Shown piece by piece: positions 4,823-41,265 of a stretch of DNA of 48,727 nt; position 1 is the stretch's first letter, and every line of letters begins with the position of its first letter. A program made the translations under genes and the position numbers. The notes under the pieces are model-generated. The model was not told where the DNA came from. It worked only from the letters and a program-made list of their open reading frames with translations, and searched no databases. The stretch is from NCBI RefSeq assembly GCF_002159915.1, contig NZ_NFJP01000029.1:1-48727 (forward strand), given 5' to 3'. The DNA comes from Gordonibacter sp. An230 (GTDB taxonomy: Bacteria; Actinomycetota; Coriobacteriia; Coriobacteriales; Eggerthellaceae).

Positions 4823-6346
4823 CTAACGGTCCGCAGAGTCGAGCAGGTCGATGAGTTCGTCGCGCGAATGCACCCCCACCTTTTGATATATATGGCTAAC
4901 GTGCGTTTTCACCGTGTTGTACGACAGAAAGGTCTCGTTGGCGATGGAGCGCAACGTCCGTCCGCACAACAAGTAGCCCAGCACGTCTTTCTCACGGGCG
5001 GACAACCCGAAACCTGCCGCCACATTCGCGCATCGGCCCTCGAGATCGCGCAAAGGATCGACCGGCTCGTCCGCATTCGCCTGAAGCGATTTCGCGAACG
5101 CTTTGTCCCGCTCACGATTCTCTATGTTCTCCAGCGCTTTGGGAAACAGCAGCACGCCGATAAGAAGCAGCAGATATGCGATCCCCAACGCAGCCCCCGT
5201 CGCCCAAACGCCGGGCAACGGCAAGACAACGGCCGCCAGCATCGACCCGGACGCGAGCCCAATGTCGATAGTGCACGTGCCTCCCGCGAAAACCAGGCAT
5301 GGCTCGGTTTTCGTATCGGCGGCCATCAGCCCGAATTCCGTATAGACATAGACGAGGAACAGATGATAACCCGTTAGCATGAGCACGCCCGCACCGGATT
5401 CGACGCCCTCCCAAGGGAAGCTCTCGCCGAACAAGAACAAAGGCAAGGCGAGAAGCCCTCCTGCAACGAGCGGAATGACCAGACGCGAGAACAGACACAA
5501 TCCGTGCTTTTCCATGAAAAGGTAGTCAAGGCATGTGGCGAGCACCATCAAAACGCATACGCATGAGAGGATGGTGCTCCATCCGGTGGCAGTTTCGCCC
5601 GACTCCGCGAATGTATACCAATTCTGAAACAGCCCCGTTGGCAGCGCCAAGATGAAACAACAGGCCAACACGCTGACCACCATGCGTTTGCAAGGCCGCT
5701 CAGCATCCTGACGCGCCGAGGGCGCAAGCGGGTTCGCCGCAGGAGCACGGCTCTTCGCGAATCGCCATTCGAAAGCCTCGCACCCTCGCCCTGCCGCACC
5801 CGCCTTCGCCATTCGTTGCATGCACGCAGAAGTTGCAAAGGGCAAGAGGCACGTGACCGCCAACGCAGCCAGATCGGGCAAATTCGGAATCAGCAATGCG
5901 ATGAACATCCCCACTATCACCGAACCGGACAGGATCAAGCGCTGATCGGAGGCTTGCAGCAACGACGAGTACGGTCCGCACCACATGAGCAGCATTCCGG
6001 CGGTGCCCATACCCGAAACGAAGGAGCCTGCCAACACGAGCGCATTCAATCCGAAAGCCCAACGCCCCGCCGCCAGCATCGCCGTACCGATGGCAACCAG
6101 CGAGGGAAATGCCCGCGATGCGAAACGGCCGTTCGGCGCAAACCCTCGCCTACGCGCAAGCAAAAGAAGCACACCCAAACTCGCGCAATGGGAAACGACG
6201 TTCACCGTCCATGAGAAATGGGAGAGCTCAACCGGTCCGTCCTTCCAAAGCAACGACGCGACCATGGACACGCTCGCCCACGCCCAGTAAGAGCCGATCC
6301 CAACCAGCAGGCAAAAGCCTTCTTCGAACCTGAGCCTTTTCAGCAT
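4823..6346 (-). CDS. Membrane-anchored LuxR-type transcriptional regulator
   Basis: A 507-residue protein with about twelve hydrophobic segments from residue ~10 to ~405 and a LuxR helix-turn-helix in the last ~65 residues (LSAREKDVLGYLL ... NTVKTHVSHIYQKVGVHSRDELIDLL). The ATG at 6346 has GGGGGAGGG upstream. It is transcribed divergently from the Tat flavoprotein at 6598, with ~250 bases between the starts, which suggests that it controls that reductase and perhaps senses its substrate. Ligand unknown. Confidence 0.86.
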   Translation of the reverse strand: MLKRLRFEEGFCLLVGIGSYWAWASVSMVASLLWKDGPVELSHFSWTVNVVSHCASLGVLLLLARRRGFAPNGRFASRAFPSLVAIGTAMLAAGRWAFGLNALVLAGSFVSGMGTAGMLLMWCGPYSSLLQASDQRLILSGSVIVGMFIALLIPNLPDLAALAVTCLLPFATSACMQRMAKAGAAGRGCEAFEWRFAKSRAPAANPLAPSARQDAERPCKRMVVSVLACCFILALPTGLFQNWYTFAESGETATGWSTILSCVCVLMVLATCLDYLFMEKHGLCLFSRLVIPLVAGGLLALPLFLFGESFPWEGVESGAGVLMLTGYHLFLVYVYTEFGLMAADTKTEPCLVFAGGTCTIDIGLASGSMLAAVVLPLPGVWATGAALGIAYLLLLIGVLLFPKALENIENRERDKAFAKSLQANADEPVDPLRDLEGRCANVAAGFGLSAREKDVLGYLLCGRTLRSIANETFLSYNTVKTHVSHIYQKVGVHSRDELIDLLDSADR

Positions 6347-6587
6347 AGCAACCCTCCCCCGTCAACGCGAAGCGCGCATTCATTATCTCAGAGCGGCCTT
6401 GAACCGCAGCTGAGCATTCATCGGCGCGCATCGCCCGTATCAGGTGATTTCAAAGCACACCCCATCCTCCCGATGCGCCCGGTCGCACTTCCAAAGAGAA
6501 TAGCCTCGTCACAAGCCGCTGCTTGCAGACGCGCGTCCAAGACGGCAAAGACATCTTGCAAACAGGCAGAACCGCAACGAGCATCGA

Positions 6588-6600
6588 AGGGGAGCATATG
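6588..6600 (+). promoter_or_regulatory. Ribosome-binding site deciding the flavoprotein start
   Basis: AAGGGGAG just before ATG 6598 fixes the start at the methionine that begins a Tat signal, rather than at upstream in-frame alternatives that would add 25 unrelated residues. Confidence 0.75.
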
Positions 6601-8175
6601 AAATTGCAACGAGAACTTTCACGCAGAAGCTTTTTGGGCTTGGCAGCGGCGGGAGCAGCCGTGGCGGGAGTCGGGCTCGCCGGATGCGGCCCAACGAGCG
6701 CCGGCTCGAACGCATCCCAAGAAGACGTCGCCGGCTATGCGCCAGAAGAGGTCGTCGAAACCATCGATGCGGACATTGCGGTGGTGGGGCTTGGAATGTC
6801 GGGCCTTGCCGCGGCCGTTCAAGCAGGGTGCAACGGCGATGCGGTCGTGGGACTCGAGGCCACAAACGTCACCGGAGGCAACGGCATCGGCGTAGAGGGC
6901 ATCTTCGCCGTGGGGACGGAATTGCAAAAAGCGGCAGGCATCGAAATCGATCCCGTGGAGGTCGTCCGAACCGAACTCGAAGAAGCGCAGATGGTCACAG
7001 ATGGAGCCTTGTGGAGCAGATTCGTTCGCGCGTCGGGCGACAATGTGTCATGGCTCATCGAGCAGGGAGTTAAGTTTTCGGGCGTCGTGGACGACTATCT
7101 TGGCTCAGGAATCGTGAGTGGTTTTCACTGGTTCGAAGGGAACGTCGCCAGCACCGGGTACATCCCGCAAATGACCGAGCGGGCGAAGGTGCTGGGCGTC
7201 GACATCCGAATGGAGACCACCGCCAAGAAGCTCATCAAAGAAGGAGGCAAAGTTACCGGGCTGTACGCGCAACGCAAGGACGGAAAAGCCATCCGGATCA
7301 ATGCGAAGGCGGTCATTTTGGCAACCGGAGGATACGCCCAGAGTCAAGAATTCATGGAAGAGAGGGGGTTTAACTGGGAAAACGTCATATATGGCGGAAC
7401 GCCCGGTCATAATGGCGACGGATTGAAAATGGCGTTCGAGGTAGGCGCGCGCAGTTTTGTCAAAAACTCCACGTTCAACTGCACGAACATCTGCGGACGG
7501 GGCGACACCTTCGCCTGGAAGGCCGATCCGTTCACCTCGATCTTCTGCGGCGCGGGAATGTTCGGAACCGGGGGGAACCAACTGTGGGTCAACCAAGACG
7601 CCGCTCGCTTCATCAACGAGAATTTCGCCGCCGCTAATTTCGAAATGCAGAGCGTCCCCGCTATGACCCATCGCGCTCTGTACTCCGTGTTCGACCGAGC
7701 CATTCTCGAAACGGCGTTCGCCCAGGATCCCGAAAGCCTCGAGCGAATCGACTCCATCAACGAGCCGGACTTGGCCGTGGCCGATACGCTCGAAGAAGCA
7801 GCCGCGCACTTCGAGCTCGACGCGGCGGCACTGCAGGCAAGCGTCGATCGCTACAACGAGCTGTGCGAAGCGAAAGCCGATGCCGACTTCGGCAAGCCGG
7901 CAGAACTGATGGACCCCATCAAAACCCCGCCATACTACATCGCCAAACTGAACCAGTACTACCTCATGTCCGTGGGCGGCATCGAATGCGATATCAATGC
8001 GCAAGCGCTCGACGAAGCCAAGCGGCCCATCGAAGGGCTGTACGCAGTTGGCACGGACGGCTGCATGCTGTACCGCAACATCTACACCATCAACGTTGGC
8101 GGCACGTGCAACGGCAACAACGTGAACTCGGGCCGAACGGCTGCGAACCACGCGCATTCCACGATCACGAGCTAG
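6598..8175 (+). CDS. Tat-exported lipoprotein FAD-dependent reductase (FAD_binding_2 family)
   Basis: This 525-residue flavoprotein has a twin-arginine signal (SRRSFLG, residues 8-14) ending in a lipobox LAGC (Cys30). It should be exported folded with FAD and anchored outside the membrane. The dinucleotide motif is GLGMSG near residue 60, and the C-terminal block GLYAVGTDG closes the FAD site. The sequence is related to fumarate/urocanate reductase flavoproteins. However, the segment where fumarate reductase has HHTMGG reads LMSVGG, and the late Arg of the NRLGG block is not evident; instead there is a YRNIYTINVGG stretch. The electron acceptor is therefore unknown. No haem motif or cytochrome partner is nearby. 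It is divergent from the LuxR regulator at 4823-6346. Confidence 0.87.
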   Translation: MKLQRELSRRSFLGLAAAGAAVAGVGLAGCGPTSAGSNASQEDVAGYAPEEVVETIDADIAVVGLGMSGLAAAVQAGCNGDAVVGLEATNVTGGNGIGVEGIFAVGTELQKAAGIEIDPVEVVRTELEEAQMVTDGALWSRFVRASGDNVSWLIEQGVKFSGVVDDYLGSGIVSGFHWFEGNVASTGYIPQMTERAKVLGVDIRMETTAKKLIKEGGKVTGLYAQRKDGKAIRINAKAVILATGGYAQSQEFMEERGFNWENVIYGGTPGHNGDGLKMAFEVGARSFVKNSTFNCTNICGRGDTFAWKADPFTSIFCGAGMFGTGGNQLWVNQDAARFINENFAAANFEMQSVPAMTHRALYSVFDRAILETAFAQDPESLERIDSINEPDLAVADTLEEAAAHFELDAAALQASVDRYNELCEAKADADFGKPAELMDPIKTPPYYIAKLNQYYLMSVGGIECDINAQALDEAKRPIEGLYAVGTDGCMLYRNIYTINVGGTCNGNNVNSGRTAANHAHSTITS

Positions 8176-8594: not shown

Positions 8595-10178
8595 CTAGCG
8601 CGCCTCCTCCAGCTTGCGCATGAGCTCGGCACGATTGTGGACGTCGAACTTCTCGTAGATGTGGCGCACGTGCGTTTTGACGGTGGCCGGAGAGATGACG
8701 AACTTCTCTTGGATGTACTTCGACCCATGTCCCGTCACCCACAGCGCGAACACCTCCTTCTCGCGCGGGGAGAGTTGGTAAGCGGCGGCCAGCGCGTCGA
8801 TGCGCGCAGCGAGCCCTTCGGACGGCGGAACCAGCCCGACGTCCACCGACGAGGCGCCGGCCGCAACACCCGAGCCCTTCGAGGCGCGCACGCCGCCCAC
8901 GCCTCCTTCCGCAGCGCCGCCTTCATCACCGCTCTCGCCCCCCGAGGCTCCCTTTTCGCCAAGCGCCGCAAGACGCGCGAGCTCTGTCGGCGTAGGGCTT
9001 TCGAACGCGAACGTGGTGTCGCGATCTGCGAACGTAAAGCCCGCTGACACCACGAGAACGAACACGGCCGTCACTGCGAACGCGGTCACATCGCCGACGA
9101 ACGCGAACGCCGCCAGTTCGCCCGTCACGATGCCCGCATGCACCGCCAATCGACCCATTGCGAACACGAGCAGCGGAGAGAAATGCGTCGTGCGCGCGAT
9201 CTCAGCAAGCAACGCCCATGTGAGCACCTCGAACAAAACCGAGCTGAGCGACGCCATGAAGAACACCGCCCAGGCGTTTCCCTGCCCCACGAGCGCGATA
9301 AGCACGAACGCCAATGCCCACACCGACAAGGCGATGCGGTAGAGAACGCCGAGATTGAGGCTCGTGCGCGACGCGAACGTGCCGTACAGGAAGAAGATGA
9401 GCGCAGCCAGCGCAATGGTGCCCGCCATGAGCCACGGATCGGAGAACACATCGGGGGCAAGGTCGCCGAAATACACGCGCAGGCCGCCATACGCGAACAG
9501 AGCCGTCGTCAATCCCACGAGCACGCGCCAAGAAAGCGCCGTGCGCACGAGCATCCGAACCTCCTCGCGAGCACCTCTCGCATGCGCAACGCCAACCCCG
9601 AGGCGCCGTGCGCACCCGCCTCCGCGCATGCTGGCAACAGCCGTCGCCGCAGCAGCCAAAGGTAGCAGCGACACACCCGCCGACGAGAACGCCGGCTCGA
9701 GCGCCGCAAGAGCCGCGAGCGCCGCGTACAGCACGGCAGCTCCGAAAAACGTCATCGACGTGAACAGCACCGCACGCCTCGCGTCGAGGCCGCGATACGC
9801 GACGCCCCATGCCAGCACGATGGGAGAGCATGCAAGCCCCGTCACCAGCGCCCCGGCCACCGTCAACGCCGGATTCGGCGCAAGCAGCGGAGACGAGTAC
9901 AGAAACGTGCCCGCAGCAGCCGCCACACCGCATCCCGCCAACACCCGCGCAACACGCGCAGCGGACCATGCCGCAACACGATGGAAGCACACGGCGCTCG
10001 CACCGAACACGACCATGGCCGCGGCTGCCGAAGCCACGTGCACGAACGACAGAGACCGCCCATCGCCACCTACGATGTCGATGGAATTGAAGGAAAGGAA
10101 CACCCAAGCCCAGTAGAAGCTCAGGCCCGCATAGCGCAACGCGAACTCTCGGCTCACGGCCGCAAACCCCGTCTTCAC
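8595..10178 (-). CDS. Membrane-anchored LuxR-type transcriptional regulator with long Gly/Ser linker
   Basis: A 527-residue protein with about twelve hydrophobic segments, a low-complexity Gly/Ala/Ser/Glu linker of ~60 residues, and a C-terminal helix-turn-helix (LSPREKEVFALWV ... ATVKTHVRHIYEKFDVHNRAEL). The linker is much longer than in the sister regulators and probably lets the DNA-binding head move away from the membrane. I prefer GTG at 10178, preceded by AGGGGAGGG, to ATG at 10208, which has only a weak site and would add ten residues. It is divergent from the flavoprotein at 10579. Confidence 0.84.
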   Translation of the reverse strand: MKTGFAAVSREFALRYAGLSFYWAWVFLSFNSIDIVGGDGRSLSFVHVASAAAAMVVFGASAVCFHRVAAWSAARVARVLAGCGVAAAAGTFLYSSPLLAPNPALTVAGALVTGLACSPIVLAWGVAYRGLDARRAVLFTSMTFFGAAVLYAALAALAALEPAFSSAGVSLLPLAAAATAVASMRGGGCARRLGVGVAHARGAREEVRMLVRTALSWRVLVGLTTALFAYGGLRVYFGDLAPDVFSDPWLMAGTIALAALIFFLYGTFASRTSLNLGVLYRIALSVWALAFVLIALVGQGNAWAVFFMASLSSVLFEVLTWALLAEIARTTHFSPLLVFAMGRLAVHAGIVTGELAAFAFVGDVTAFAVTAVFVLVVSAGFTFADRDTTFAFESPTPTELARLAALGEKGASGGESGDEGGAAEGGVGGVRASKGSGVAAGASSVDVGLVPPSEGLAARIDALAAAYQLSPREKEVFALWVTGHGSKYIQEKFVISPATVKTHVRHIYEKFDVHNRAELMRKLEEAR

Positions 10179-10578
10179 CGGCCCTCCCCTTGCAGTCAGC
10201 GTCGTCATCCAAGAAACGCCCTCATTGTAACCGACTTCATCGAATCGCGCTCATTCGGGAAGCTCCGCAAGATGCCACGCCCCGAGCAGCATGGCGAGCC
10301 CTGCGCGCCGAAGGGCGTCCGCATTCAGCACGCCAAAGCGGGTCGGAGCCTTCGAAGACCCCGCCGCCCAACCGGCATCCCGAACCCGCCCGCATCAACC
10401 CAAAGGGTTGATGTCGCCCGTCGTCATGGGAAATCAACCCTTTGGGTGGGCGGCACGACGCCCCATCCCGCATATCGTAGGCATCGCAGTCGGGCACCGG
10501 CGACCACTCGAAGCGAGCGCCGCCGACCGCGAGGAAAAGCAACCAGCAACGTAGCACGACACAGGGAGGATGATTCGC
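10179..10578. promoter_or_regulatory. Divergent regulatory region of the second LuxR/flavoprotein module
   Basis: Four hundred bases between two divergent starts, with no gene. Its most marked feature is the inverted repeat at 10398-10447. The ribosome-binding site GGAGG at 10565-10569 serves the flavoprotein. Confidence 0.6.
10398..10447. promoter_or_regulatory. Large dyad, candidate operator
   Basis: ACCCAAAGGGTTGAT at 10398-10412 is matched perfectly by its reverse complement at 10433-10447 across a 20-base spacer. The left arm extends to 10394 and is itself nearly palindromic (ATCAACCCAAAGGGTTGAT). It lies ~130 bases upstream of the flavoprotein start, without a T-run. That fits a pair of operator half-sites better than a terminator. 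Confidence 0.6.
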
Positions 10579-12345
10579 ATGACCACCACTTCGCACAGGC
10601 GCGGTCTTTCCCGCCGCGCGTTCCTCGGCCTCGGCGCCACCGCCGCCGTCGCGGCGGGCGCAGGCCTCGCAGGCTGCGCGCCGCAGACGAACGGCGGCGC
10701 GTCGAAGGGAGCAGAGTCCGGCTCGGGCTCAACCGCAGGCTCCGGCACCCCCAGCTTCATGACTGCGCCCGAGCCCATCGCCGAGGGCGACATCACCGAG
10801 ACGATCGAAGCGGACATCGTCATCGTGGGCGCGGGCCTCTCCGGCATCAGCGCGGCCCGCTCAGCCGTCGAGAACGGCGCGAAGAACATCGTCGTCGTGG
10901 AGAAGGCCACCACGTGGCAGTACCGTTCGAACCAAGTGGGCTGCATCGGCGGCAAGATACAAGAGGACCTCGGCATTCACATCGACAAGAACGCCGTGGT
11001 CGGCCAGATCATGAAAGAGTGCGGCTATCGTCCCAACCAGCGCATCCTCAACTTGTGGGCCGATCACTCTGGAGAGGCGTTCGACTGGTACCTGGCCGCA
11101 AGCGAGGGCCAGTACGTGGTGGAAGCCGAGTCCGATCCTTACGACGGCGAATCCATGAGCGTTCGCAAGATGCACTGGCCCCATCCCGAAGAGGCCAACG
11201 TCGCCGCCGACTACTACCCCATCTTCGACGACTGCCAGATCTGCCTGCCCGACAACGGCCCCTACATCCAGAACATGGTGGAGATATGCGAGGAGGCCGG
11301 CGTGCGGTTCCTGTACTCCACGTTCGCCCGCCAACTTGTGCGCCCGGACAACGCCGGTCGCGTCGAAGGGGTCATCGTCGAGGACGAGAACGGCGACTAC
11401 AAGAAGATCACCGCCAGCAAGGCCGTCCTGCTGGCCACGGGCGACTACGCGTCGAACGCCGAGATGATGAGCTACTACGTGCCGTGGTCCGACCGCTTCG
11501 CCAGCATCTTCCCGAACGTCGACGCCAAGGGCGAGAAGACGAACACGGGCGACGGGCAGCAGATGGGCATGTGGATCGGCGCCAAGATGGAGGACGGTCC
11601 GCACGCTCCCATGACGCACCACCTGGGCGGTCCTTTGGGCATGGACGCGTTCCTGCTCGTCGACATCTACGGCAACCGTTTCATGAACGAGGACGTGGGG
11701 GGCCAACCCTTCCAAAACCAGCTGTCGCGCCTGCCTAAGAAGACCGCGTGGCAGATCTTCGACAGCAAATGGAAAGACCAGATCAAGTACATGGACACCG
11801 GCCACGGCAACGTGAACTGGTACGTGGAATCAGGCTCCGAGGTGCCCAACGGCTCGTATGGCAAGAACGCCTACATCTCCGAGGAGGACAACGAGGACGG
11901 CAACACGCCCGGCTTCACGAGCTACTTCGAGGGCGACAAGGCCGTGGGCGTCACCGCGAACTCCATCTCCGAGCTGGCGAAGCTCATGGAGGTTGACGAG
12001 GCAACGCTCGTCGCCACCATCGAACGATACAACGAGCTGGCCGCCGCCGGCAACGACGAGGACTTCGGCAAACGCGCCGACCGCCTGTTCCCCATCGAGG
12101 AAGGGCCCTTCTACGCCTACCCGCTCACCGACACCGTGATCCTCGTGAACATGGGCGGCCTGCAAACCGACGTGGACTTCAACGTGCTAGACACCGAGGA
12201 CGAGGTGATCGAGGGCCTGTACGCTGTGGGCAACGCCCAGGGCGGCCGCTTCCTTGTGGACTACCCGCTGCCCGCGCCCGGCATCAGCCACGGCATGGCG
12301 CTCACCCACGGCATGCTGGTCGGACGCATCTTGGCCCAGCTGTAG
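10579..12345 (+). CDS. Tat-exported lipoprotein FAD-dependent reductase (FAD_binding_2 family)
   Basis: This 588-residue flavoprotein has the Tat motif SRRAFLG (11-17), lipobox LAGC (Cys33), the FAD motif GAGLSG (~85) and C-terminal GLYAVGNAQGG. It is a clear paralogue of the flavoprotein at 21581-23314: both have GPHAPMTHH followed by GG, both have a WQIFDSKW block, and both end with DYP before the last Gly. The fumarate-reductase HHTMGG block reads LVNMGG and no NRLGG Arg is seen, so it is probably not a fumarate reductase. ATG at 10579 is used because GGAGG sits nine bases upstream; ATG at 10570 is too close. The likely regulator is the divergent LuxR gene at 8595-10178. Confidence 0.88.
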   Translation: MTTTSHRRGLSRRAFLGLGATAAVAAGAGLAGCAPQTNGGASKGAESGSGSTAGSGTPSFMTAPEPIAEGDITETIEADIVIVGAGLSGISAARSAVENGAKNIVVVEKATTWQYRSNQVGCIGGKIQEDLGIHIDKNAVVGQIMKECGYRPNQRILNLWADHSGEAFDWYLAASEGQYVVEAESDPYDGESMSVRKMHWPHPEEANVAADYYPIFDDCQICLPDNGPYIQNMVEICEEAGVRFLYSTFARQLVRPDNAGRVEGVIVEDENGDYKKITASKAVLLATGDYASNAEMMSYYVPWSDRFASIFPNVDAKGEKTNTGDGQQMGMWIGAKMEDGPHAPMTHHLGGPLGMDAFLLVDIYGNRFMNEDVGGQPFQNQLSRLPKKTAWQIFDSKWKDQIKYMDTGHGNVNWYVESGSEVPNGSYGKNAYISEEDNEDGNTPGFTSYFEGDKAVGVTANSISELAKLMEVDEATLVATIERYNELAAAGNDEDFGKRADRLFPIEEGPFYAYPLTDTVILVNMGGLQTDVDFNVLDTEDEVIEGLYAVGNAQGGRFLVDYPLPAPGISHGMALTHGMLVGRILAQL

Positions 12346-12490: not shown

Positions 12491-12934
12491 TCAGTCCTGC
12501 TTCACCACGAGCACGTCGCAGCGCATGGAGCGTATGAGAAACGTGGACACACTGCCCACGAACGCGTACTTGATGTTGGACAAGCCCCGCTCTCCGCAAA
12601 TGACCAGGTCGGGCTGTGTCGGCTCGATGAGCTGGTGCTCGAGCGTGTCGGTGATGCGACCCGCCCGCACGAGCAGTTCGACCGATGGGATGCCTGCATT
12701 CGCGCGCGCCTCTGCCAAGACGTCGGCAAGATCGGCCTCGATTCGCTTCTTGCCCTCAACGCACAGCGCCTCGAAGTCCACGCCAGACGCTTCGTAGGGA
12801 ACCGAATCGACGACATGCCCGAACACGAGCGACGCATGGTCGTCGGCCGCCAACGCCACCGCGCGCTCAGCCACCGCCTTCTGCGTCGACGCTCCATCGA
12901 GCGCTGCGAAAATACGCGTGTACCGCTGTCCCAT
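12491..12934 (-). CDS. Universal stress protein (UspA family)
   Basis: A 147-residue single-domain Usp. It opens with the usual strand-Asp pattern (RIFAALDGA) and ends with the nucleotide-binding pattern G-x2-G-x9-G-S (from GERG to VGS) and CDVLVVK. Such proteins bind ATP or similar nucleotides in the cytoplasm and support stress survival; a specific role is not visible. ATG at 12934 has AAAGGAG upstream; a longer frame to 12970 has no such site. It is convergent with the flavoprotein gene and stands alone. Confidence 0.88.
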   Translation of the reverse strand: MGQRYTRIFAALDGASTQKAVAERAVALAADDHASLVFGHVVDSVPYEASGVDFEALCVEGKKRIEADLADVLAEARANAGIPSVELLVRAGRITDTLEHQLIEPTQPDLVICGERGLSNIKYAFVGSVSTFLIRSMRCDVLVVKQD

Positions 12935-13049
12935 GTCCGCTCCTTTCATCGCCCGGCGGCCTTTCGCCACCGCGTTTCGCCCCTATTGTACCGCAGCGCT
13001 GCCTCCGGAAGAGCCAATGCTGCGAAACGGAAAAGGGGAGCTTCCCACC

Positions 13050-15278
13050 TCACAACGCACGCGCGGCAAGGTTGGCCGACGAGATGGCCTCGGCGATGTT
13101 GTACGGTTCAGCGCAATCGCCCACCAGCGCCACTTCGATCCCCGACAGGCTGTCTGCGAGTTCGGTGTTCGGCAGCTCGTCGCTCATGTCCACAAGCGCG
13201 CTGCAAGGCAAGACCACGTCCACGCCCGCCTCGCTTTTGATCGTGATCTGCCCATCGCCAACCTCCAAAACTTCGGCAGACGGCCAGATGCGCACGCCTT
13301 GGGCGGTGATGGCCGATTCCACGAAGTCGCGCATGTTGACCGAATGGCCCTTTTCGAACGCCTCGAGCGGATCGGGCGTGACAATGGAAACGTTTTTTCC
13401 GAGTGACAGCAGGTAGACCGCAACGTCGACCGCTTGGCAATTGCTGCCGAGCACCGTTACGTCGTCGCCCATCTCGGCACTGGCCACCTCCTCAAGCGAA
13501 AGCACCTGCGTGCCCGACGTGGCCTCGAATGCGGTTTCGGCACGCTTGCCGCCCACGGCGACGATCACCGCATCGGGGGCCTCCTGCTCCACCAGCGCGG
13601 CATCCACCTCGGTTCCCATGACCACGTTCACACCGTATACTTCAAGCTGCTTGGCCAGGTAGCTCCTCAGACGGCCGAGATTCTCATGCGGACCCTTGAT
13701 GCCCTCAGCGGCCGCGAGCCTGCCGCCCAGACTGCCGCCTTTCTCGTACAGCGTCACCGCGCATCCGCGCTGAGCCGCCACGCGCGCCGCCTCCATGCCG
13801 GCAGGGCCTCCGCCCACCACCATGACCCTCTTCTCGCCCTCTATGGGCGCGGGCGTCCAACCTTCGGGCATGGCCTCTCCGTACGCACGCCAATTCGCAG
13901 CGTTCACGCGGCAGTGCTCCATGAGGGCGCCCGACTTGTCCGGATCGTAAAAGCAGTGCAGGCAGCGCGTGCACGGAGCGATCTCGTCGATGCGCCCTTC
14001 GCGCAGCTTGTTCACGTATTCGGGATCGACGCACAGCGGACGGTTCATTACAAGGAAGTCGAGCTTTCCCTCCGAGATGGCCGCCTCGAAGTAGTCGGGC
14101 GCCTGCGCCGGATCCATGTACGTGGCCGCCCCCACCGGAATGGACACCGCGCTTTTGATCTCGGCAGCCACATCGAGCATGAGACCGCAGCCGGAATGGT
14201 CGGCGCGCAGCTTGCCCTGGAAGTGGCGCGAGAAGTCGAACCGGCCGCCGAAACCGGTCGCACCTTCCAAGCCCCGCACGGCGAAGTACAGCTCGCTCGC
14301 GAACTGCGCGATGTGCTGGCCGGCCGGCCCCAAGCGCACGTGCAAGCTGTCAGCGCCCGCATCCTCGAGCATCTTCGCGATGGCCTTGTTCTCCTCGATG
14401 GAAGTGCACATGGAATCGGCTCCGAGGCTCCGATCGTTTCCTTCCACGCCGTTGATGAGCACCTGCACCACGAAGTCCTCGCCGCATGCCTCCTTGACGC
14501 CCTTGACCACTTCGACGACGAAGCGGGTGCGGTTCTCGAGGGACTGCGGGCCGTACTCGTCGGTGCGGTTGTTGCGCGCCCGCGAGAGGAACGACTGGCC
14601 CACGTTGTTCGCCGCGAAATTCAACTCGAACGCATCGAAGCCGTCGTCGTGCAGGCGCTTCGCGATGCCGATGATCGTCTGCTCCCACTCCTTCACCTCG
14701 TCGGTTGAGTAATTCCCGAGGAAAGGCTCCTCGAAGTCGAGCGGACCGATAGGCGAGCCCATGGTGTCGAACTGGTAGCCTACATGCGCGCCCGCGGCAT
14801 GCAGGCGGTCGACGAGGCCTTTCACGTCGTAGGAAGCGTAATCCTGCTTGAGAGGGCTCGCGGTAAGCTCCCAGATGTTGGCGAAATCCTCGACCCAGAT
14901 CATCTCGACGCCACCTTGCGCCATACGCTCGTAATAGCCGATGTACTCGTCCGGATTGCCCTTCATGAACGCCAGCTGGAACGCCGCCGACTTCACCATG
15001 CGGTGGCCGAGCTCGATGCCACCGAGCTTCCAGCCGCTGAACAGCGCCGATGATGCGAAATCAGTGATGGAGTTGGCAGTGTAGCCGTAGTCCTGAGGGT
15101 TGAGGACGTCGTTGCGATCGACCGTCGCGCCTTGCACGTCATTCGCGCTCTCGTCCACGCCGCCATCCAGTTGCGAGGCGGGCGCGCATCCGGCCAAACC
15201 GAAAGCCCCTGCCCCCACCGCCCCCGCTGCAAGCCCCTGCAAGAAGCTTCTGCGCGAAATGCCCTTCGCATCTATCAT
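13050..15278 (-). CDS. Tat-exported old-yellow-enzyme/FAD-NAD(P) fusion oxidoreductase
   Basis: This 742-residue protein has the layout of 2,4-dienoyl-CoA reductase/enoate reductase enzymes. An FMN TIM barrel spans residues ~60-400, four cysteines for a [4Fe-4S] cluster (CTRCLHC then EHC) lie at about 430-455, and a two-dinucleotide-fold FAD/NAD(P) half follows (VVGGGPAGMEAARVA near 510). It would move electrons through Fe-S and FMN to an activated C=C or C=O substrate. Unusually for this family it begins with a Tat signal (SRRSFLQG, 9-16) and lipobox LAGC (Cys31), so it should act outside the membrane, where NAD(P)H is absent. ATG at 15278 has AAGGAGGAAG upstream. It is divergent from the LysR regulator. 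Confidence 0.88.
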   Translation of the reverse strand: MIDAKGISRRSFLQGLAAGAVGAGAFGLAGCAPASQLDGGVDESANDVQGATVDRNDVLNPQDYGYTANSITDFASSALFSGWKLGGIELGHRMVKSAAFQLAFMKGNPDEYIGYYERMAQGGVEMIWVEDFANIWELTASPLKQDYASYDVKGLVDRLHAAGAHVGYQFDTMGSPIGPLDFEEPFLGNYSTDEVKEWEQTIIGIAKRLHDDGFDAFELNFAANNVGQSFLSRARNNRTDEYGPQSLENRTRFVVEVVKGVKEACGEDFVVQVLINGVEGNDRSLGADSMCTSIEENKAIAKMLEDAGADSLHVRLGPAGQHIAQFASELYFAVRGLEGATGFGGRFDFSRHFQGKLRADHSGCGLMLDVAAEIKSAVSIPVGAATYMDPAQAPDYFEAAISEGKLDFLVMNRPLCVDPEYVNKLREGRIDEIAPCTRCLHCFYDPDKSGALMEHCRVNAANWRAYGEAMPEGWTPAPIEGEKRVMVVGGGPAGMEAARVAAQRGCAVTLYEKGGSLGGRLAAAEGIKGPHENLGRLRSYLAKQLEVYGVNVVMGTEVDAALVEQEAPDAVIVAVGGKRAETAFEATSGTQVLSLEEVASAEMGDDVTVLGSNCQAVDVAVYLLSLGKNVSIVTPDPLEAFEKGHSVNMRDFVESAITAQGVRIWPSAEVLEVGDGQITIKSEAGVDVVLPCSALVDMSDELPNTELADSLSGIEVALVGDCAEPYNIAEAISSANLAARAL

Positions 15279-15397
15279 GTCTTCCTCCTTATTCCACAAA
15301 GATTGCCCCTTGCCTCCAGGTAACCACAACAAGATGCCTCGACGGAAGAAAGAAGCCGCAGCACCCCCGCCACGGTTCATTGCGGGGAGCAGCCGAT

Positions 15398-15426
15398 CTG
15401 ACCCCAAGAACGAGGAGCGTTATAAT
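15398..15426 (+). promoter_or_regulatory. Sigma-70-like promoter for the LysR gene
   Basis: CTGACC at 15398-15403 and a perfect TATAAT at 15421-15426 are separated by 17 bases, about 55 bases upstream of the LysR start. The position in the divergent OYE/LysR region fits autoregulation. Confidence 0.6.
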
Positions 15427-15479
15427 GACGGGCAGGGGAACCGCGCAACAGAGGCATGCTGTTCGAAAGGAGGGGGCTT

Positions 15480-16367
15480 ATGGATGCGAACAGCTTGCAC
15501 TGCTTTCGGCTCGCCTACGAGAGCAGATCCATCAGCAAAGCGGCGAGGCAGGCGTTTCTCACCCGCCAAGGCATGAGCCAAGTGCTCAAAGGACTCGAGA
15601 CCGATCTCGGGCGCACGCTGTTCGTCCGCACACCGCAGGGGCTCGATCCCACGACGACAGCCGACCTCGTGTACCCAAAGGCCGTGGACCTGCTCGACAG
15701 CTACGATGCCATACGGGCCATCTGCTCAGCAGAAAGGCCCTCTCGAAAGCCGATTCGCATGAGCGTTTCGCTCGGCGCGCTCGATTCCCTTCCGCTCGAT
15801 CGGCTCGTCGAGGAATTTCGCACCGGTCATCCGGAGATGCGGCTCGAGCTCGACATCATCGAGCCCATCATCGCAGAACGGTGCGTGGAGGAGGGCAGCG
15901 AGGACATGGCCCTCATCGTCGGAAACCTGCGCGGATCGCGTACGCGCTGCACGCGCCTGTGCGACATTCCGCTCTACGCGGCCGTCCACAAATCGCTGCT
16001 TCCGCAGAAAGAACACCACACTCTGGACAGCTTGGACGGACTTACTTGGTACGGGCTTTCCAAAGACTTCCCGCTAGACGAAGCCATCACCGAGCTCGCT
16101 CGGAAACGGGGACTCAACCTAACCATGTCATTCGATTGGCACGACTACCACCTCATCCTCGATCAAGTGAGACGGAGAAAGGGCGCCTGCGCAGTGCCCC
16201 GCCATCGTATCCGGACATTCTGCACCGACGGCATCGCGGCCATCCCCCTTGACGACGCCTCATGCACGTGGGCCGTCAACGCCCTCACCCCTCGCAATCG
16301 CCCTCTGCCCGACGCAACGCGAACCGTTCTCGACTGGCTCGCAGAGCGCCTGCAAAGCGAGACATAG
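15480..16367 (+). CDS. LysR-type transcriptional regulator
   Basis: This 295-residue protein has an N-terminal winged helix-turn-helix over residues ~1-60 (LHCFRLAYESRSISKAARQAF, with the segment GMSQVLKGLETDLGRTLFVRT) and a periplasmic-binding-like effector domain over ~90-295. ATG 15480 is preceded by AAAGGAGG. It is divergent from the Tat OYE fusion at 15278 with a 200-base shared region, the classical LysR arrangement, so it most likely controls that enzyme in response to its substrate. The effector is unknown. Confidence 0.88.
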   Translation: MDANSLHCFRLAYESRSISKAARQAFLTRQGMSQVLKGLETDLGRTLFVRTPQGLDPTTTADLVYPKAVDLLDSYDAIRAICSAERPSRKPIRMSVSLGALDSLPLDRLVEEFRTGHPEMRLELDIIEPIIAERCVEEGSEDMALIVGNLRGSRTRCTRLCDIPLYAAVHKSLLPQKEHHTLDSLDGLTWYGLSKDFPLDEAITELARKRGLNLTMSFDWHDYHLILDQVRRRKGACAVPRHRIRTFCTDGIAAIPLDDASCTWAVNALTPRNRPLPDATRTVLDWLAERLQSET

Positions 16368-16699: not shown

Positions 16700-17413
16700 C
16701 TATCCCGTCACCAGCAGCAATCCGCCAATGCACAGGATGAGCGCGTACGTGAACTTGAGGAACTTCTCTTGGCTGATCCGCTTCTGCAGCTTGTTTCCCA
16801 AAATCGTGGCGACCACGGCCAACGGGACGCAAATCGCCACCACTTGCAGGATATCGCTCGTGAAGTGCCCGCGCTGGAACGCGATGAGGGCATACACCCC
16901 GTTGAGAACCGTCCATGCAGCCGAAAGCGTTATGCGGAACTGCTGGCGATCGCGCAGCTTTTGCACTGCGTAGATGACGAGCAGCGCCCCGCCCGACACG
17001 AACATGCCCTGGATGAGGCCCGCCAAAGCCAGCACGGTCCAAAGCATCCATTCGGGCAGAAACCCCGTTTGGGGACGCAACAGGTTCTTCGCCCCAATCG
17101 CCACGAGTACGACACCGTACAGCTTCAACAGAATATGTAGCGGCATGACGGCATCCAGCCAGATGCCCACGAACATGAACACCGCCATCACCAAGAGGAT
17201 CTTGCCCAATTCCCGCCAATTCACGCTCTTCAAATCCGTCACCGCAAGCAGCCCGCATGCGAAAAACCCCATCGCGTTGAGCACGGCCACCGTAGGCTCC
17301 AACCCCAGGAGCATCGTGCCGACCGGCATGGCGAGGATGTTGCCGGCAAACCCGGTGATGGCCTGTACGGTATAGGCGAAGAAGAACGCCACCAAGAAGA
17401 GCGCTTTTTCCAT
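16700..17413 (-). CDS. TauE/SafE-family membrane permease
   Basis: A 237-residue, very hydrophobic protein with about eight membrane segments and the duplicated half-structure of the TSUP (sulfite exporter TauE/SafE) family. The opening YTVQAITGFAGNILAMPV and the second-half LALAGLIQGMFVSGGALLVIY have the family's Gly-rich helix pattern. Members move sulfite, sulfonates or other organic anions; the substrate here is unknown. ATG 17413 (MEKALFL) is preferred to TTG 17422. It is convergent with LysR and could serve the OYE system, but adjacency is the only evidence. Confidence 0.82.
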   Translation of the reverse strand: MEKALFLVAFFFAYTVQAITGFAGNILAMPVGTMLLGLEPTVAVLNAMGFFACGLLAVTDLKSVNWRELGKILLVMAVFMFVGIWLDAVMPLHILLKLYGVVLVAIGAKNLLRPQTGFLPEWMLWTVLALAGLIQGMFVSGGALLVIYAVQKLRDRQQFRITLSAAWTVLNGVYALIAFQRGHFTSDILQVVAICVPLAVVATILGNKLQKRISQEKFLKFTYALILCIGGLLLVTG

Positions 17414-17793
17414 ATGCCGCAATCCTATTCTACGCGATCATCGTATCAGTGTAGCATCGATGCCCCTCCAACATGAAGCAGCAAAGGAATGCAGCGCATC
17501 CTGCACCCGCAGACGGCGATTGCCCCTCCGAGCTCCAGCGCAAATGCCGTATATCTCCTGTTCGACAATGCACGACAGCGCGGAAATAGCCACGCGAACC
17601 CATGCGCGATCACTCCACTCCTAGTCTGCGGAGACGAAACCCCTCGCAAAACGTCGCACAACCCACCAGCTACCCCAGTTGCACCAACAATCATCCTTAG
17701 CGACCAAGCGGCAATCGATCCCGAACGTCGACGCCGACGGCAAAGCGTCATCAAAAAACTTGTGAGACGCCGGCATGCCGCAACACAAGCAGG
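17414..17793. other. Intergenic region upstream of a truncated LuxR gene
   Basis: About 380 bases with no supported gene. If the LuxR remnant downstream was once complete, its first ~10 membrane segments should have been encoded here; no frame shows them. The missing part has therefore been deleted rather than frameshifted. Confidence 0.55.
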
Positions 17794-20939: not shown

Positions 20940-21580
20940 GCTTCCCCTATCCCATCCCGTGACTGGCTCCAGTGTAGCTTATACGACCATGAAAGTCACC
21001 GAAGCCCCCCGGCAAAATGTTTCCGACCTCCATCGCCTCCCCGGCACGCCCACGCGCTCGGGCGTCCATCCTATCCACCCCATCGCGCTCGCGATGCATT
21101 CCCGATGCGACATCGCACAACCGCGGGAGGGGTTGTCGCCCGAATCGGTCGTTTCTTTCGCCTAAAACGACCGATTCGGGCGACAACGCGCAAGCCAAAA
21201 TGACCCTCGGCCGCACACGGCCTCCGAGGAGTTTCCTTCCCGCGCCCCGCAGCGCTGCACGTCCAGAATGCGGCGCTAAACCCGGCGAATAGCGGCAACC
21301 ACCCGGTTCAGGTAGGTTCCCATCGGCCAAAACAGCGAAAACTACCCGCAGGCGGGTGTGGCGTCCCCCGACACGGAAGGCATAAGGTGCAAACAGTCGA
21401 AGCGAATCGAGGGCTGTAACGCAAGGGAGAAAACGACGAGCGGCGCCAAAGCCGCAAGCGTCGTACCGCGCCGCCCGGCGCTGCCGCATGTCGCAACGCT
21501 CCCGTGCGCCAACCCGCCGAATCGCCGCAACGAAGGCAGGGGAGGGAGCACCTCTGCACGCACAAGGGAAGGAGCACTTC
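20940..21580. promoter_or_regulatory. Divergent region of the third LuxR/flavoprotein module
   Basis: About 640 bases with no supported gene. It holds the second hairpin repeat (21131-21188) and the flavoprotein ribosome-binding site GGAAGGAG just before 21581. The region is longer than the equivalent spacers in the other modules (~250-400). Confidence 0.55.
21131..21188. repeat. Hairpin repeat element, copy 2
   Basis: A perfect 23-bp inverted repeat (arms 21132-21154 and 21165-21187, core GTTGTCGCCCGAATCGGTCG) with a 10-base loop. Compared with copy 1 the outer 13 bases are identical, and one base pair differs compensatorily (AAC/GTT becomes ATC/GAT), so pairing is preserved. Confidence 0.85.
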
Positions 21581-23314
21581 ATGAACAAAGGATTGAGCCG
21601 TCGCGCATTCCTAGGCCTCGGCGCCACGGCAGCCGCTGCGGCAGGCGTGGCCGGCCTCGCGGGCTGCGCACCGCAGCAAAGCGGCACTGCGAACAGCGGA
21701 AACGCCGGCGCGGACGGATCGGCCTCCGGCATCGCCCCCAGCGAGTACACCCCCGACTTCCTAACCCCGCCTCCGGTTCCCACCGATGTCAAAGAGGAGA
21801 AGGACTGCGACGTCCTCGTCATCGGCCTGGGCCTTGCCGGCACCGCCGCCGCCAAGGCAGCAGCCGAAGCCGGCAAAAAGGTCATCGTGCTCGAAAAGCA
21901 GCCCGAAGACGGCTACACCGTCATCTCCATGGCTGGCGACTTCGGCGTGGTGGGTTCGCAGATCCAGAAGGATCTCGGCATCGAATGGGCGCCCAAAGAG
22001 GACATCATGAACGAGTACGTCAAAGAGACCGGCGGCCGCTGCGACACGTGGATGATGAGTTATTGGTACGACCATTCCGGCGAGGACTTCGACTGGTTCA
22101 TCGAGGGTGCAGACTACGAGGTGCTCAAGTCCACCGCCGCCAACCGCGAGACGGACAAGCCGAACTTCATCCGTCCGAAGTGCTTCCCCAAGTTGGAAAC
22201 GTACAACTACAAAGAGGAGCTGTACCCCTACTTCCACGGCACCATCACGGCGAACCCGAACATGCAGTGGTGCTGCCAGGCTGCGTGCGATGCCGCCAAG
22301 GCCGCCGGAGCAGAGATCATCTACGGTGCCGAGGGCGAGCAGCTCTTCAAGGACGGCGAGGCCGTGGCGGGCGCTTACGCCAAGACGGCTGACGGCTATC
22401 TCAAGGTGAACGCCAAGGCCACCATCCTCTGCACCGGCGACTACGGTGCGAACCTCGAGATGCGCCACTACTACGCCCCTTGGACCGACGAGTTCCAGGG
22501 AGGCTACGACGACGGCCAGGGCCAGCTCATGGGCATCTGGGCGGGCGGCTGGATGGAGCTGGGCCCACATGCCCCAATGACGCACCACATGGGCGGAGCT
22601 CTCGGCGTGGATAGCTACCTGCAGCTCAACATGGAGGGCAAGCGCTTCATGAACGAGGACGTACCCGGTCAAAACATCGCAGACGAGCATACGCGCCAGC
22701 CCGTCGCCAAAGACCCCGAGCTCGCCGCGGCCGGCGTGAAGGCATGGCAGATCTTCGACAGCAAGTGGCCCGAGCAGATCATCCACATGCCCGACGGTCA
22801 CGGCTACACCACCTACTTCATCCCTGAAGAAGAGGCCGCGAACTACGAAACGGTGCTCTCGGGCTTCGGCTTGGGCTACACTACGCAGGCCATGGTGGAC
22901 GAAGCCGTCGATGTCAAATGCGACACGCTCGAGGAGCTGGCCGAGCAGACAGGCCTGCCCTACGAGACGATGAAGGCAGAGATCGAGCGCTACAACGAAC
23001 TGTGCCACAAGGGCTACGATGAGGACTTCGGCAAAATGGCGAAGCGCATGTTCCCTGTCGAGAACCCGCCGTACTACGCGTGCAAGTTCGGCAACGCGGG
23101 CATGCTCGTCATGTTCGGCGGCCTCGAGTGCAACCACGATCTTCAGGTGACCAAGGACGGCACGAACGATCCGATCCCCGGTCTGTACGTGGCTGGCAAC
23201 ACGATGGGTCGCCGCCTCCAGGTGGACTACCCCGTTGTCGTAGCCGGCATCAGCCTGGCCACTGCGCTTACGTTCGGCCGCTTGGCCGGCACGAACGCCG
23301 CAGCCAGCGTGTAA
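21581..23314 (+). CDS. Tat-exported lipoprotein FAD-dependent reductase (FAD_binding_2 family)
   Basis: A 577-residue flavoprotein with Tat motif SRRAFLG (6-12), lipobox LAGC (Cys29), FAD motif GLGLAG (~80) and C-terminal GLYVAGNTMG. It is paralogous to the protein at 10579-12345, sharing GPHAPMTHH-x-GG, FMNEDV, WQIFDSKW and the late DYP motif. The fumarate-reductase His block reads LVMFGG and the NRLGG Arg is replaced by a VDYPVVVAG stretch. It is predicted to be an extracytoplasmic reductase of an unknown organic acceptor. ATG 21581 has GGAAGGAG upstream. The likely regulator is the divergent LuxR gene. Confidence 0.88.
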   Translation: MNKGLSRRAFLGLGATAAAAAGVAGLAGCAPQQSGTANSGNAGADGSASGIAPSEYTPDFLTPPPVPTDVKEEKDCDVLVIGLGLAGTAAAKAAAEAGKKVIVLEKQPEDGYTVISMAGDFGVVGSQIQKDLGIEWAPKEDIMNEYVKETGGRCDTWMMSYWYDHSGEDFDWFIEGADYEVLKSTAANRETDKPNFIRPKCFPKLETYNYKEELYPYFHGTITANPNMQWCCQAACDAAKAAGAEIIYGAEGEQLFKDGEAVAGAYAKTADGYLKVNAKATILCTGDYGANLEMRHYYAPWTDEFQGGYDDGQGQLMGIWAGGWMELGPHAPMTHHMGGALGVDSYLQLNMEGKRFMNEDVPGQNIADEHTRQPVAKDPELAAAGVKAWQIFDSKWPEQIIHMPDGHGYTTYFIPEEEAANYETVLSGFGLGYTTQAMVDEAVDVKCDTLEELAEQTGLPYETMKAEIERYNELCHKGYDEDFGKMAKRMFPVENPPYYACKFGNAGMLVMFGGLECNHDLQVTKDGTNDPIPGLYVAGNTMGRRLQVDYPVVVAGISLATALTFGRLAGTNAAASV

Positions 23315-24939: not shown

Positions 24940-27501
24940 TCACGCCTTTTCGACTTCGACGAGCACGTCGTAGAAAGCGGTGTTTGTCATGCTGTACGCC
25001 TCTTCGGCGTCGCAGATGGTGTGATGGGTCAGGTTCTGATAGCAGCCCTCGATGAAGTGGTCAGGCGTCCAGCCGCTCTGCGTGGCCACCGCGCCCGGGA
25101 TGATGCCCTCGGTCAAAAACGCGCGTATCTTCATGCTGCCGCGGTCGTTGCGCACGCGTACCACGTCGCCGTGAGAAATGCCGCGCGCCTCGGCGTCGAC
25201 GGGGTTTATCTGCAACAGCGGCTCGTCCTGCACCACCTCGAGCGCCGGATTCAAGATATGTTGAGTGTGCACATTCAGACGATCATGGTATTGGATGTAC
25301 ACAAGCGGATACTTCGACGCCAACTCACCCTCACGCGGATCCTCGCACGGCGGAAGCCAAGTAGGCACCTCTTCGCCGAAAGGCAGAAGGCTTTCGGTAT
25401 AGAACTCGAACTTACCCGTATCAGTGGAATAACCGGTGCCGTCCTCGTAGACGATCGCCGAATCGAATATGCCGTCGGAGCGGCTGTAAATGCCCCGCTC
25501 GACCACGTCGCGTTCCCAATCGAAGTCATCCCACGCAGGATGATCGGTGCTCACGAACTGACGAATCCACTCCTCATCGGTCTTGTCCCAGTACTGCTCG
25601 ACGCCGGTTTTCTTCGCCAGCAGCGTCATAATCTCCACATCGGACTTGCTCTCACCCATCGGCTCAATGGCGGGCTGGTTGAACATAGCCCACGGGCTGC
25701 GGTCGATGAGATCCCAATGCTCCCAGTACGTGCAAGCGGGCAGCACGATGTCGGAGTACTTCGCCGTCCACGTCCACCACGGGTCAACCGTCACGATGAA
25801 GTCGATGGCGGGGATCACCTCGTCAATAATGCGGTTGGAGTCGGGACTCATGTTGACGAAGTTCGAGTTGGCGATCCACAAAAAGTCAATGGGCACTGGA
25901 TTGTGGTCCACCGCCGCCGCGTACACCTTCGACGAGGGAACGAGATTCGCCTTCTTGCCCGTATTCGACCAATCGTCAAAATCATATACGGAGCCGGTGT
26001 ACCCTGCGACTGGCTTGGTAGTGGCCGTGCCTCCCGCATGCGAAGCGCCGCCGCCCAAAACCCCAATGTAGCCGGCCACCATGGCAAGCGTCGCCACGGT
26101 GCGGAACGGCGAGTACGAGTGATACACGCGCTGCATACCCTGCCCCATGCGGATACCCGCAGGCTGAGCCTCGATGTACTCCCGAGACAGGCGCTCCACC
26201 ACAGAAGGGTCAATGCCGCAGATCTCCCCAGTACGCTCGAGCGTGTAAGGAGCGCACGCATCCTTCAAATGGTCGAAGGCCGTACGACACTCCACTCCAT
26301 CCACCGTGAACGAACCGCTTAGCGCAGGCCTGACGCCTCCGACCTTGATGGCGGCGGCGTCGGGTGCGGGCACTGCAGCTCCCGTCAACTCATCCCAGAT
26401 CACATATGTGCCGGCATCCGCGCCCGCTTTGCCCTGAGCAGCGGGGGCGGTGCCGATGGAGCCTTCGTCGTCTTTCCGAGCGCCCGTCGCCGTGGCCACC
26501 ACCGAACCGTCCACCATGCGCAAGTATGCGCCATCGTCCTCACGAACGAGGTAGGGAGCGACCGATTCCTCCACCAGCTTGTCTTTGGCGTGCAGATCGT
26601 TGCCGATGATCCAGTTCATCATGCCCAACGCCAGCGCGGGATCGGTTTGCGGCCTGATGGGAATCCACTCGTCGGCCATAGCCGCCGTGGAGCACTGACG
26701 CGGATCGATGACGATGATCTTGCAGCCGTTTTTGCGAGCGGCCACATAATCGCGCAATTCGGAGGTGTGGGTGTCGGCCACGTTGCGGCCCCACACCAGC
26801 AACAGCTTCGAGTTCAGATAGTCGCGCGAGTCGTGCGCGCCACGATGCGTGCCGAACACCATGGTCATACCCATGGATGCACCGTGATCGCCCATGATGC
26901 CCTCGATATCCCAAGTGGTGGCTCCGACGCAGGCGGCATAGCGCGTGGGCGCCTCCCACGACAACTTGCCCAAGTCGCCCGTGAACGAGTAGAACGAGGC
27001 GGCCTGCGGGTCTTTTGCCAGCACGGCATTGAGTTTTTCGGCGATCTCGTCAATTGCGTCATCCCACGTAATGCGCTCAAACTCTCCCGAACCGCGTTCG
27101 CCCGTGCGCCGCATGGGATACATGACGCGCGCATTCTCGTCCTGCAGGCGCTGGATGTAGCTCATAGAGCGTAGGCACGCATTGGCGTACCCCGGCCGTC
27201 CCGGCATGTCGCCAGGCTCGACACGCACGAGCTTGCCGTCGCGCACCGTACCGTGCAGATGGCAGCGCGACGTGCAGTTCACCGTGCACACCGCATGCAC
27301 AGCCCTCTCACCCCCCGCCGCCGAAGCCCCGCCCTCTGACGCATGCACTGTGCCGGGAAGCGCCGCCTGCGCACCGAACCCCAGCGCAGATGCAACGGTT
27401 ATCGCGCCGACGCCCTTGACAAACGTGCGGCGGGTCAGCTTGCCATCACGCGTGAAGTACTCGGGTTCGTGCGCAACGGCGTTCGTCTCGAATTCGTTCA
27501 C
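24940..27501 (-). CDS. Tat-exported molybdopterin oxidoreductase, DmsA-like catalytic subunit
   Basis: This 853-residue enzyme of the DMSO reductase family has a Tat motif (LTRRTFVKG, 22-30) and an N-terminal [4Fe-4S] motif (Cys72, Cys76, Cys80, Cys109). Further on are a molybdopterin region with GDHGASMG at 204-211, where the molybdenum ligand should lie, and a C-terminal molydopterin-binding domain (DVVRVRNDRGSMKIRAF). It would reduce or oxidise a small substrate outside the membrane and exchange electrons through the next two genes. Known relatives include DMSO/TMAO, polysulfide and catechol-dehydroxylating enzymes; the substrate cannot be read here. GTG 27501, with AAGGAGG upstream, is chosen over longer frames to 27582. 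No TorD/DmsD chaperone is adjacent. Confidence 0.9.
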   Translation of the reverse strand: MNEFETNAVAHEPEYFTRDGKLTRRTFVKGVGAITVASALGFGAQAALPGTVHASEGGASAAGGERAVHAVCTVNCTSRCHLHGTVRDGKLVRVEPGDMPGRPGYANACLRSMSYIQRLQDENARVMYPMRRTGERGSGEFERITWDDAIDEIAEKLNAVLAKDPQAASFYSFTGDLGKLSWEAPTRYAACVGATTWDIEGIMGDHGASMGMTMVFGTHRGAHDSRDYLNSKLLLVWGRNVADTHTSELRDYVAARKNGCKIIVIDPRQCSTAAMADEWIPIRPQTDPALALGMMNWIIGNDLHAKDKLVEESVAPYLVREDDGAYLRMVDGSVVATATGARKDDEGSIGTAPAAQGKAGADAGTYVIWDELTGAAVPAPDAAAIKVGGVRPALSGSFTVDGVECRTAFDHLKDACAPYTLERTGEICGIDPSVVERLSREYIEAQPAGIRMGQGMQRVYHSYSPFRTVATLAMVAGYIGVLGGGASHAGGTATTKPVAGYTGSVYDFDDWSNTGKKANLVPSSKVYAAAVDHNPVPIDFLWIANSNFVNMSPDSNRIIDEVIPAIDFIVTVDPWWTWTAKYSDIVLPACTYWEHWDLIDRSPWAMFNQPAIEPMGESKSDVEIMTLLAKKTGVEQYWDKTDEEWIRQFVSTDHPAWDDFDWERDVVERGIYSRSDGIFDSAIVYEDGTGYSTDTGKFEFYTESLLPFGEEVPTWLPPCEDPREGELASKYPLVYIQYHDRLNVHTQHILNPALEVVQDEPLLQINPVDAEARGISHGDVVRVRNDRGSMKIRAFLTEGIIPGAVATQSGWTPDHFIEGCYQNLTHHTICDAEEAYSMTNTAFYDVLVEVEKA

Positions 27502-41157: not shown

Positions 41158-41265
41158 CGGGAACCTCCTGTAAGTCGTTTGCAGCAGGGCAAGAGCCGGG
41201 CGCAAGCCCCATCGAGCTGAACACGCTGCACAGAGCCGCACGGGCAGCTACGAGCGCACTCGCCG

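Follow-up and report, generated by a model that had tools for sequence, protein, structure and literature searches.

What would an enzyme of the Old Yellow Enzyme (OYE) type do on the outside of a gut bacterium, and where would its electrons come from? Gut fusions of an OYE barrel, a [4Fe-4S] cluster and an FAD/nucleotide fold are treated as NAD(P)H enzymes in the available parts of two reports (PMC11574389, PMC12238238). The window, the whole stretch of 48,727 nucleotides from Gordonibacter sp. An230 that was analysed (source genome 3.88 Mb, 73 contigs), encodes such a fusion with an export signal. We give a probability of about 60% to the reading, drawn from sequence comparison, that this protein is a flavin/iron-sulphur reductase anchored to the membrane outside the cytoplasm, that it draws its electrons from the membrane and not from NAD(P)H, and that its substrate induces it via a LysR-type regulator. 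The architecture, the export signal, the single branch of relatives, the replaced motifs, the constraint and the adjacency of the regulator are computed.

The fusion gene and its domains

The coding sequence lies on the reverse strand at 13050-15278, encodes 742 residues and is defined by its open reading frame, its Pfam matches and a branch of 49 members. A Shine-Dalgarno sequence, AGGAGG (15284-15289, reverse strand), was read directly 6-11 bases 5′ of the ATG, and AGGAGG is likewise found 5′ of the ATG in the nearest named orthologue, from Candidatus Rubneribacter avistercoris (L043, 86%), an identity that suggests Rubneribacter as the likely genus of the source. On the same strand the gene encodes a Tat lipoprotein signal (residues 1-31; 15186-15278), a variable linker (residues 32-58; 15105-15185), an OYE-type barrel (residues 73-432; 13983-15062), the [4Fe-4S] motif cysteines C436, C439, C442 and C456 with spacing 2-2-13 (13911-13973) and an FAD/nucleotide double fold with an intact FAD GxGxxG motif (residues 483-742; 13053-13832).

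Pfam Oxidored_FMN matched residues 79-274 at 74.5 bits (cut-off 27) and Pyr_redox_2 matched residues 484-708 at 61.3 bits (cut-off 26.1). By these matches, and by comparison of the modelled residues 73-742 with 1ps9, the order of barrel, cluster and FAD/nucleotide fold is that of the FadH/TMADH-type fusion superfamily, and the four cluster cysteines are present in 49/49 members. FAD_binding_2 matched residues 485-526 only (22.6 bits, model positions 2-43 of 414), so the fusion lacks the full domain of COG1053-type exported flavin reductases and was not assigned to them. The protein has no CxxCH haem motif, and a loose pattern that we take to describe ApbE-type flavinylation sites gave no match in it. 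An anti-phage role was rejected, as there was no PADLOC match.

An AlphaFold model made with 19 sequences has a mean pLDDT of 74.7 and a pTM of 0.76, with pLDDT below 50 in the signal, residues 318-333 and the cluster loop. Its best Foldseek match is 1ps9 (E 4.9e-40). VIA-align gave Z 32.0 over 600 residues for 1ps9 and Z 31.2 over about 600 residues for 6qkg, and single-domain OYEs equal 1ps9 in Z. Likeness of fold does not by itself establish function.

The model also matches 2tmd (Z 31.5, 608 residues) and 3k30 (Z 30.6, 592 residues), which raises the possibility that the fusion is an exported dehydrogenase, oxidising an outside substrate at FMN and passing electrons via [4Fe-4S] to a membrane carrier. 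Trimethylamine dehydrogenase (TMADH) and histamine dehydrogenase oxidise their substrates in the cytoplasm without NAD, and the electrons leave through [4Fe-4S] to a soluble carrier. TMADH-type enzymes are a precedent for a fusion that does without NAD(P)H, and the TMADH cluster spacing of 2-2-n is found in all branch rows shown, but the FAD GxGxxG motif is kept in 49/49 members, whereas TMADH, with its FMN covalently attached to a barrel cysteine, has ADP at that site. Many exported reductases, moreover, occur in the hosts, which are anaerobes and more commonly need an acceptor for electrons outside the cell. Sequence alone does not tell reduction from oxidation by the fusion; we consider a dehydrogenase unlikely and continue with a reductase.

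A branch of putatively exported proteins

A preliminary description of this DNA had pointed to a Tat signal and a lipobox on the fusion and predicted an extracytoplasmic lipoprotein. Direct reading and conservation across species bear out the signal, and they support export and lipidation as predictions. SRRSFLQG forms residues 8-15, with the twin arginines at 9-10, and LAGC follows at residues 28-31, as in a Tat lipoprotein. TatC and Lsp are both encoded in the source genome.

Sixty relatives were searched at the protein level and named genomes by pattern, and the DNA of the relatives found in this way was then fetched. Bit scores among the fetched frames leave a gap between members (at least 467.8) and others (at most 229.2). 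The membership threshold was 460 bits, which places the second copy in L047 (458 aa frame, 229 bits) below it. Omission of L012, a cut duplicate of L009, reduced 50 clusters to 49, and the tree input was trimmed to the C-terminal 745 residues of L080 and 760 of L004. The 21 cytosolic rows are E. coli FadH and 20 lower-scoring matches from same-order relatives, each with a fetched locus. The comparison leaves out L035, the shorter frames of L003, L034 and L057, and many further matches for which no locus was fetched.

The 49 distinct members, the window protein included, form one branch (support 100) apart from the 21 cytosolic homologues, in a tree built by a quick method, in which some cytosolic rows sit on long branches. 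The label of exported or cytosolic changes once on this tree, compared with 18.3 times in shuffles. The Tat motif is present in 48 of the 49 members, as RR in 47 and RK in one. The 49th, L071, lost its N-terminus at a contig end and was retained as a row. On C46 and C72 the script gave no ATG, which leaves the start of the member on each uncertain. No Tat pattern was detected in the first 80 residues of the 21 cytosolic homologues.

By pattern, a lipobox follows the Tat motif in 22 of 23 Eggerthellaceae members, and the 23rd (L023) has LPGC, which the pattern missed. Outside the Eggerthellaceae there are 25 complete rows; 24 lack the lipobox pattern, and the match in the other (L072) is perhaps chance. 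An AxA string, as in signal peptidase I sites, is found in all 25, a string that is common anyway in such alanine-rich stretches. These counts suggest that export is common to the whole branch and that lipidation is confined to the Eggerthellaceae.

Conservation of the Tat motif in 48/49 members leads us to reject a chance signal. It also makes an internal start that drops the signal unlikely, an outcome that the preliminary description had named as fatal to its reading, and the signal is conserved as protein in L043. Nei-Gojobori estimates for the single pair of window and L043, which are rough for short stretches, gave dN 0.118 and dS 1.167 for the signal (residues 1-31), dN 0.463 and dS 0.659 for the linker, dN 0.043 and dS 0.591 for the barrel (residues 59-430), and dN 0.075 and dS 0.593 for the whole gene.

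Members occur in genomes of Raoultibacter, Gordonibacter and Eggerthella and in Bacillota MAGs, several of which are of ruminant origin according to their titles. The 16 named loci comprise four Eggerthellaceae, two other coriobacterial and ten Bacillota records. Strong matches occur in at least 29 of 296 genomes of the window's class, at least 27 of them in its own family; these are lower bounds, as at most three candidates with E <= 1e-120 were scored per genome. The source genome holds six branch members with 36-55% mutual identity. Tandem same-strand pairs of exported OYE members occur in Bacillota MAGs (L048, 7998-12854; L051, 2872-7717).

Replacement of the NAD(P) motif

The second Rossmann unit (residues 606-645; 13344-13463, reverse strand) reads GSNCQAVD where the GxGxxG NAD(P) motif is expected. 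The preliminary description had proposed an alignment of the NAD(P)-binding residues, and this alignment finds the motif replaced: GxGxxG occurs in 0/49 members, GxGxxA in six and neither form in 43, compared with 17, one and three of the 21 cytosolic rows. GxGxxA is a form known from some NADPH enzymes. The replacing signature consists of N613 (38/49), Q615 (46/49), A616 (47/49) and D618 (48/49). Most members (39/49) have T or S as the last residue of the second strand, and E or D stands there in 14/21 cytosolic rows; R413 and Q169 are present in all 49 members.

Since six members have GxGxxA and three cytosolic rows have neither form, the motif alone separates the two groups incompletely. 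Two cytosolic rows of the sister group, L002 (GAQIEG) and L025 (GGQIEA), are also without GxGxxG in the second unit and keep Arg at position 274 of the barrel, so the loss of the motif started, or happened again, outside the exported branch.

The altered second Rossmann fold is under strong purifying selection (residues 600-645: dN 0.029, dS 0.831 in the same pair). With its NAD(P) motif replaced and its residues constrained, the fold looks repurposed and not decayed. The preliminary description had offered a membrane electron donor or a repurposed nucleotide fold as alternatives, and both now seem to be true.

These motifs also bear on whether the signal is non-functional or NAD(P)H continues to supply the enzyme. 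The six members that keep GxGxxA would suit the latter, but the window protein itself has GSNCQA, its signal is under purifying selection, and the Tat motif spans Actinomycetota and Bacillota members. We therefore regard this reading as very improbable, and an exported enzyme with another electron source as preferable.

A remodelled barrel

Position 274 of the barrel is Arg in 21/21 cytosolic rows and Leu in 49/49 members, and R315 is present in 49/49 members and 0/21 cytosolic rows. The arginine lost from position 274, which appears to have moved to 315, is presumably the FMN-contacting Arg of OYEs. At the position of FadH His252, which we take to be the FadH donor residue, cytosolic rows have Tyr (14/21) or His (4/21), members have His in 0/49 and Tyr in 3/49, and the window protein has Ala; the loop bearing this position is poorly modelled. 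FadH Tyr166 is thought to be the substrate protonator, according to the part of a report that was available (PMC10769871). At that position members have Asn in 42/49 and Tyr in 0/49 (N225 in the window protein), and cytosolic rows have Tyr in 9/21, Trp in 7/21 and Asn in 3/21. As both positions vary among the cytosolic rows too, they carry less weight than the arginine shift. Identity as a 2,4-dienoyl-CoA reductase was rejected, since the window protein lacks both GxGxxG in its second Rossmann unit and the Tyr166/His252 donors.

The best NCBIfam matches are the long form of bilirubin reductase, mycofactocin-system OYE 2 and BaiCD, and the fusion could be a BaiCD/BilR-type ene-reductase of steroids, bile acids or bilins that is exported and otherwise keeps its usual chemistry. 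The scores are far below the equivalog cut-offs, however, at 265.6 of 750, 255.2 of 793.15 and 198.5 of 825 bits, and the HGDR of BilR is found in 0/49 members. BilR was rejected on both counts, and mycofactocin-system OYE 2 and BaiCD on their scores. The altered Tyr166 and His252 positions also speak against such an enzyme, a point weakened by the variation among cytosolic rows, and we judge it quite unlikely. Nothing specific favours as substrates the compounds named in the preliminary description, unsaturated acids and ketosteroids; the positions that normally carry catalysis in this fold are altered.

Regulator and genomic setting

A 303-residue LysR-type regulator (Pfam HTH_1 and LysR_substrate) is encoded divergently at 15456-16367 on the forward strand. 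In the control region between the two genes (15279-15455) no inverted repeat of 7 or more was found, and no LysR operator was assigned there. The divergent neighbour noted earlier is real and recurs: LysR relatives adjoin three of the four other Eggerthellaceae orthologues (L043, L044 and L054, with 76%, 48% and 49% identity), and none was detected at L045. Across the branch, 41 members have sufficient flanking sequence, and 24 of these have a LysR or LuxR relative no more than 500 bases away, compared with 34 of 230 control genes at the same loci; none was detected for the other 17.

The window is an island rich in reductases. It encodes four FAD_binding_2 proteins (6523-8175, 10570-12345, 21488-23314 and 37644-39374), a molybdopterin oxidoreductase (24940-27582) and three LuxR-type regulators (4823-6346, 8595-10208 and 35917-37539); the protein at 10570-12345 has a Tat-like signal and a lipobox by reading. 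A universal stress protein (12491-12970) and a TauE/SafE-type permease (16700-17422) flank the fusion/LysR pair, and relatives of both also occur near the L043 orthologue. A pyridoxal-dependent decarboxylase and an amino acid permease adjoin one another at 39667-41241 and 41266-43485, possibly as an amino acid decarboxylation pair.

The abundance of exported reductases from other families, both in the window and in the Eggerthella lineage, supports the reading of the fusion as an outside reductase. Against it, no donor is encoded beside the gene and no single carrier was found in all 16 hosts. No recurrent redox partner or donor gene was found beside members among the neighbours examined (ten proteins profile-scanned, three without a match).

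Candidate electron carriers

Three carriers were surveyed in 16 host genomes as candidates for one shared donor, and each fails in some host. UbiA prenyltransferase, a marker of quinone synthesis only, was found in 9/16 (9/9 coriobacterial, 0/7 Bacillota), FMN_bind in 15/16, and Cytochrom_NNT, for NapC-type cytochromes, in 1/16, in draft genomes searched with one Pfam model each. The source genome has 11 FMN_bind matches and no Cytochrom_NNT. No single carrier serves all 16 hosts on these counts, unless some genes escaped detection or the hosts take up quinones, possibly from neighbours.

The genome without FMN_bind, G030, belongs to the window's family (2.4 Mb, one contig) and has two exported OYE members and one UbiA. 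ApbE was matched in 16/16 host genomes, but in G030 only within a 66-residue frame, so the flavinylation system seems to have been lost there. The carrier may differ by host, with menaquinol in G030 and a flavinylated carrier in those Bacillota hosts in which no quinone prenyltransferase was detected.

A proposed mechanism

There are several steps in the mechanism that we propose. First, the fusion would fold with FMN, FAD and [4Fe-4S] in the cytoplasm, and Tat would move the folded protein out. Lipidation at Cys31 would then anchor it to the membrane. Outside, it would meet no NAD(P)H, in keeping with the replaced NAD(P) motif of the branch, and electrons from a membrane-linked carrier would enter the FAD/nucleotide-fold half that formerly took them from NAD(P)H. 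From FAD they would pass through [4Fe-4S] to FMN and on to an organic acceptor in the remodelled barrel. Finally, the divergent LysR regulator would turn the gene on with that acceptor. In this account we infer which cofactors the fusion contains, where it sits, which way its electrons run, and what its donor, acceptor and inducer are.

It is tempting to go further and regard the branch as extracytoplasmic respiratory reductases of a third structural class, at work in gut anaerobes, although we hold this view tentatively and would not yet bet on it. An NAD(P)H-dependent cytosolic ene-reductase would have been exported once, and its NAD(P) site would have become an entry port for an extracytoplasmic carrier, marked by the conserved G-x-N-x-Q-A-x-D signature. 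Its FMN site would have been rebuilt, with the arginine shifted from the end of one strand to that of the next. The family would have spread into many paralogues with separate inducers. The branch clearly illustrates that selection can maintain a nucleotide-binding fold whose nucleotide motif has been replaced, and it offers residues that are testable by mutation. Different hosts lack different candidate carriers and could so help to distinguish them.

Comparison with known systems

The window fusion is a variant of the known OYE/[4Fe-4S]/FAD architecture. Its barrel, four-cysteine cluster motif and FAD/nucleotide double fold follow one another as they do in E. coli FadH. FadH lacks an export signal and has GxGxxG, Arg at position 274, Tyr and His donors and a cysteine spacing of 2-3-11, whereas the window fusion has a Tat signal, GSNCQA, L274 with R315, Asn and Ala, and a spacing of 2-2-13. 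BilR (long form) and BaiCD have the same architecture in gut bacteria and are the first and third NCBIfam matches, but the fusion is far under their cut-offs and lacks HGDR. In the accessible part of the BilV preprint (PMC13252198), signal peptide, periplasm, extracellular and Tat do not occur as whole words. A search of open-licence literature by title and start of abstract found no paper describing exported OYE fusions, which is weak evidence. Trimethylamine and histamine dehydrogenases (2TMD, 3K30) have the same fold over about 600 residues; unlike them, the fusion has an export signal and an intact FAD motif.

The E. lenta respiratory reductases form two major families, gathered by COG1053 and COG0243, in the available part of a recent account (PMC13060105). 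The fusion resembles these exported FAD_binding_2 and molybdopterin reductases in its Eggerthellaceae hosts and in the LuxR or LysR genes nearby, and differs from them in its catalytic domain, an OYE barrel/[4Fe-4S]/FAD fusion. A count of E. lenta reductases by those two families, as that part presents it, would miss the exported OYE branch. With two exported reductase families already named for Eggerthella, this branch is a candidate for a third class.
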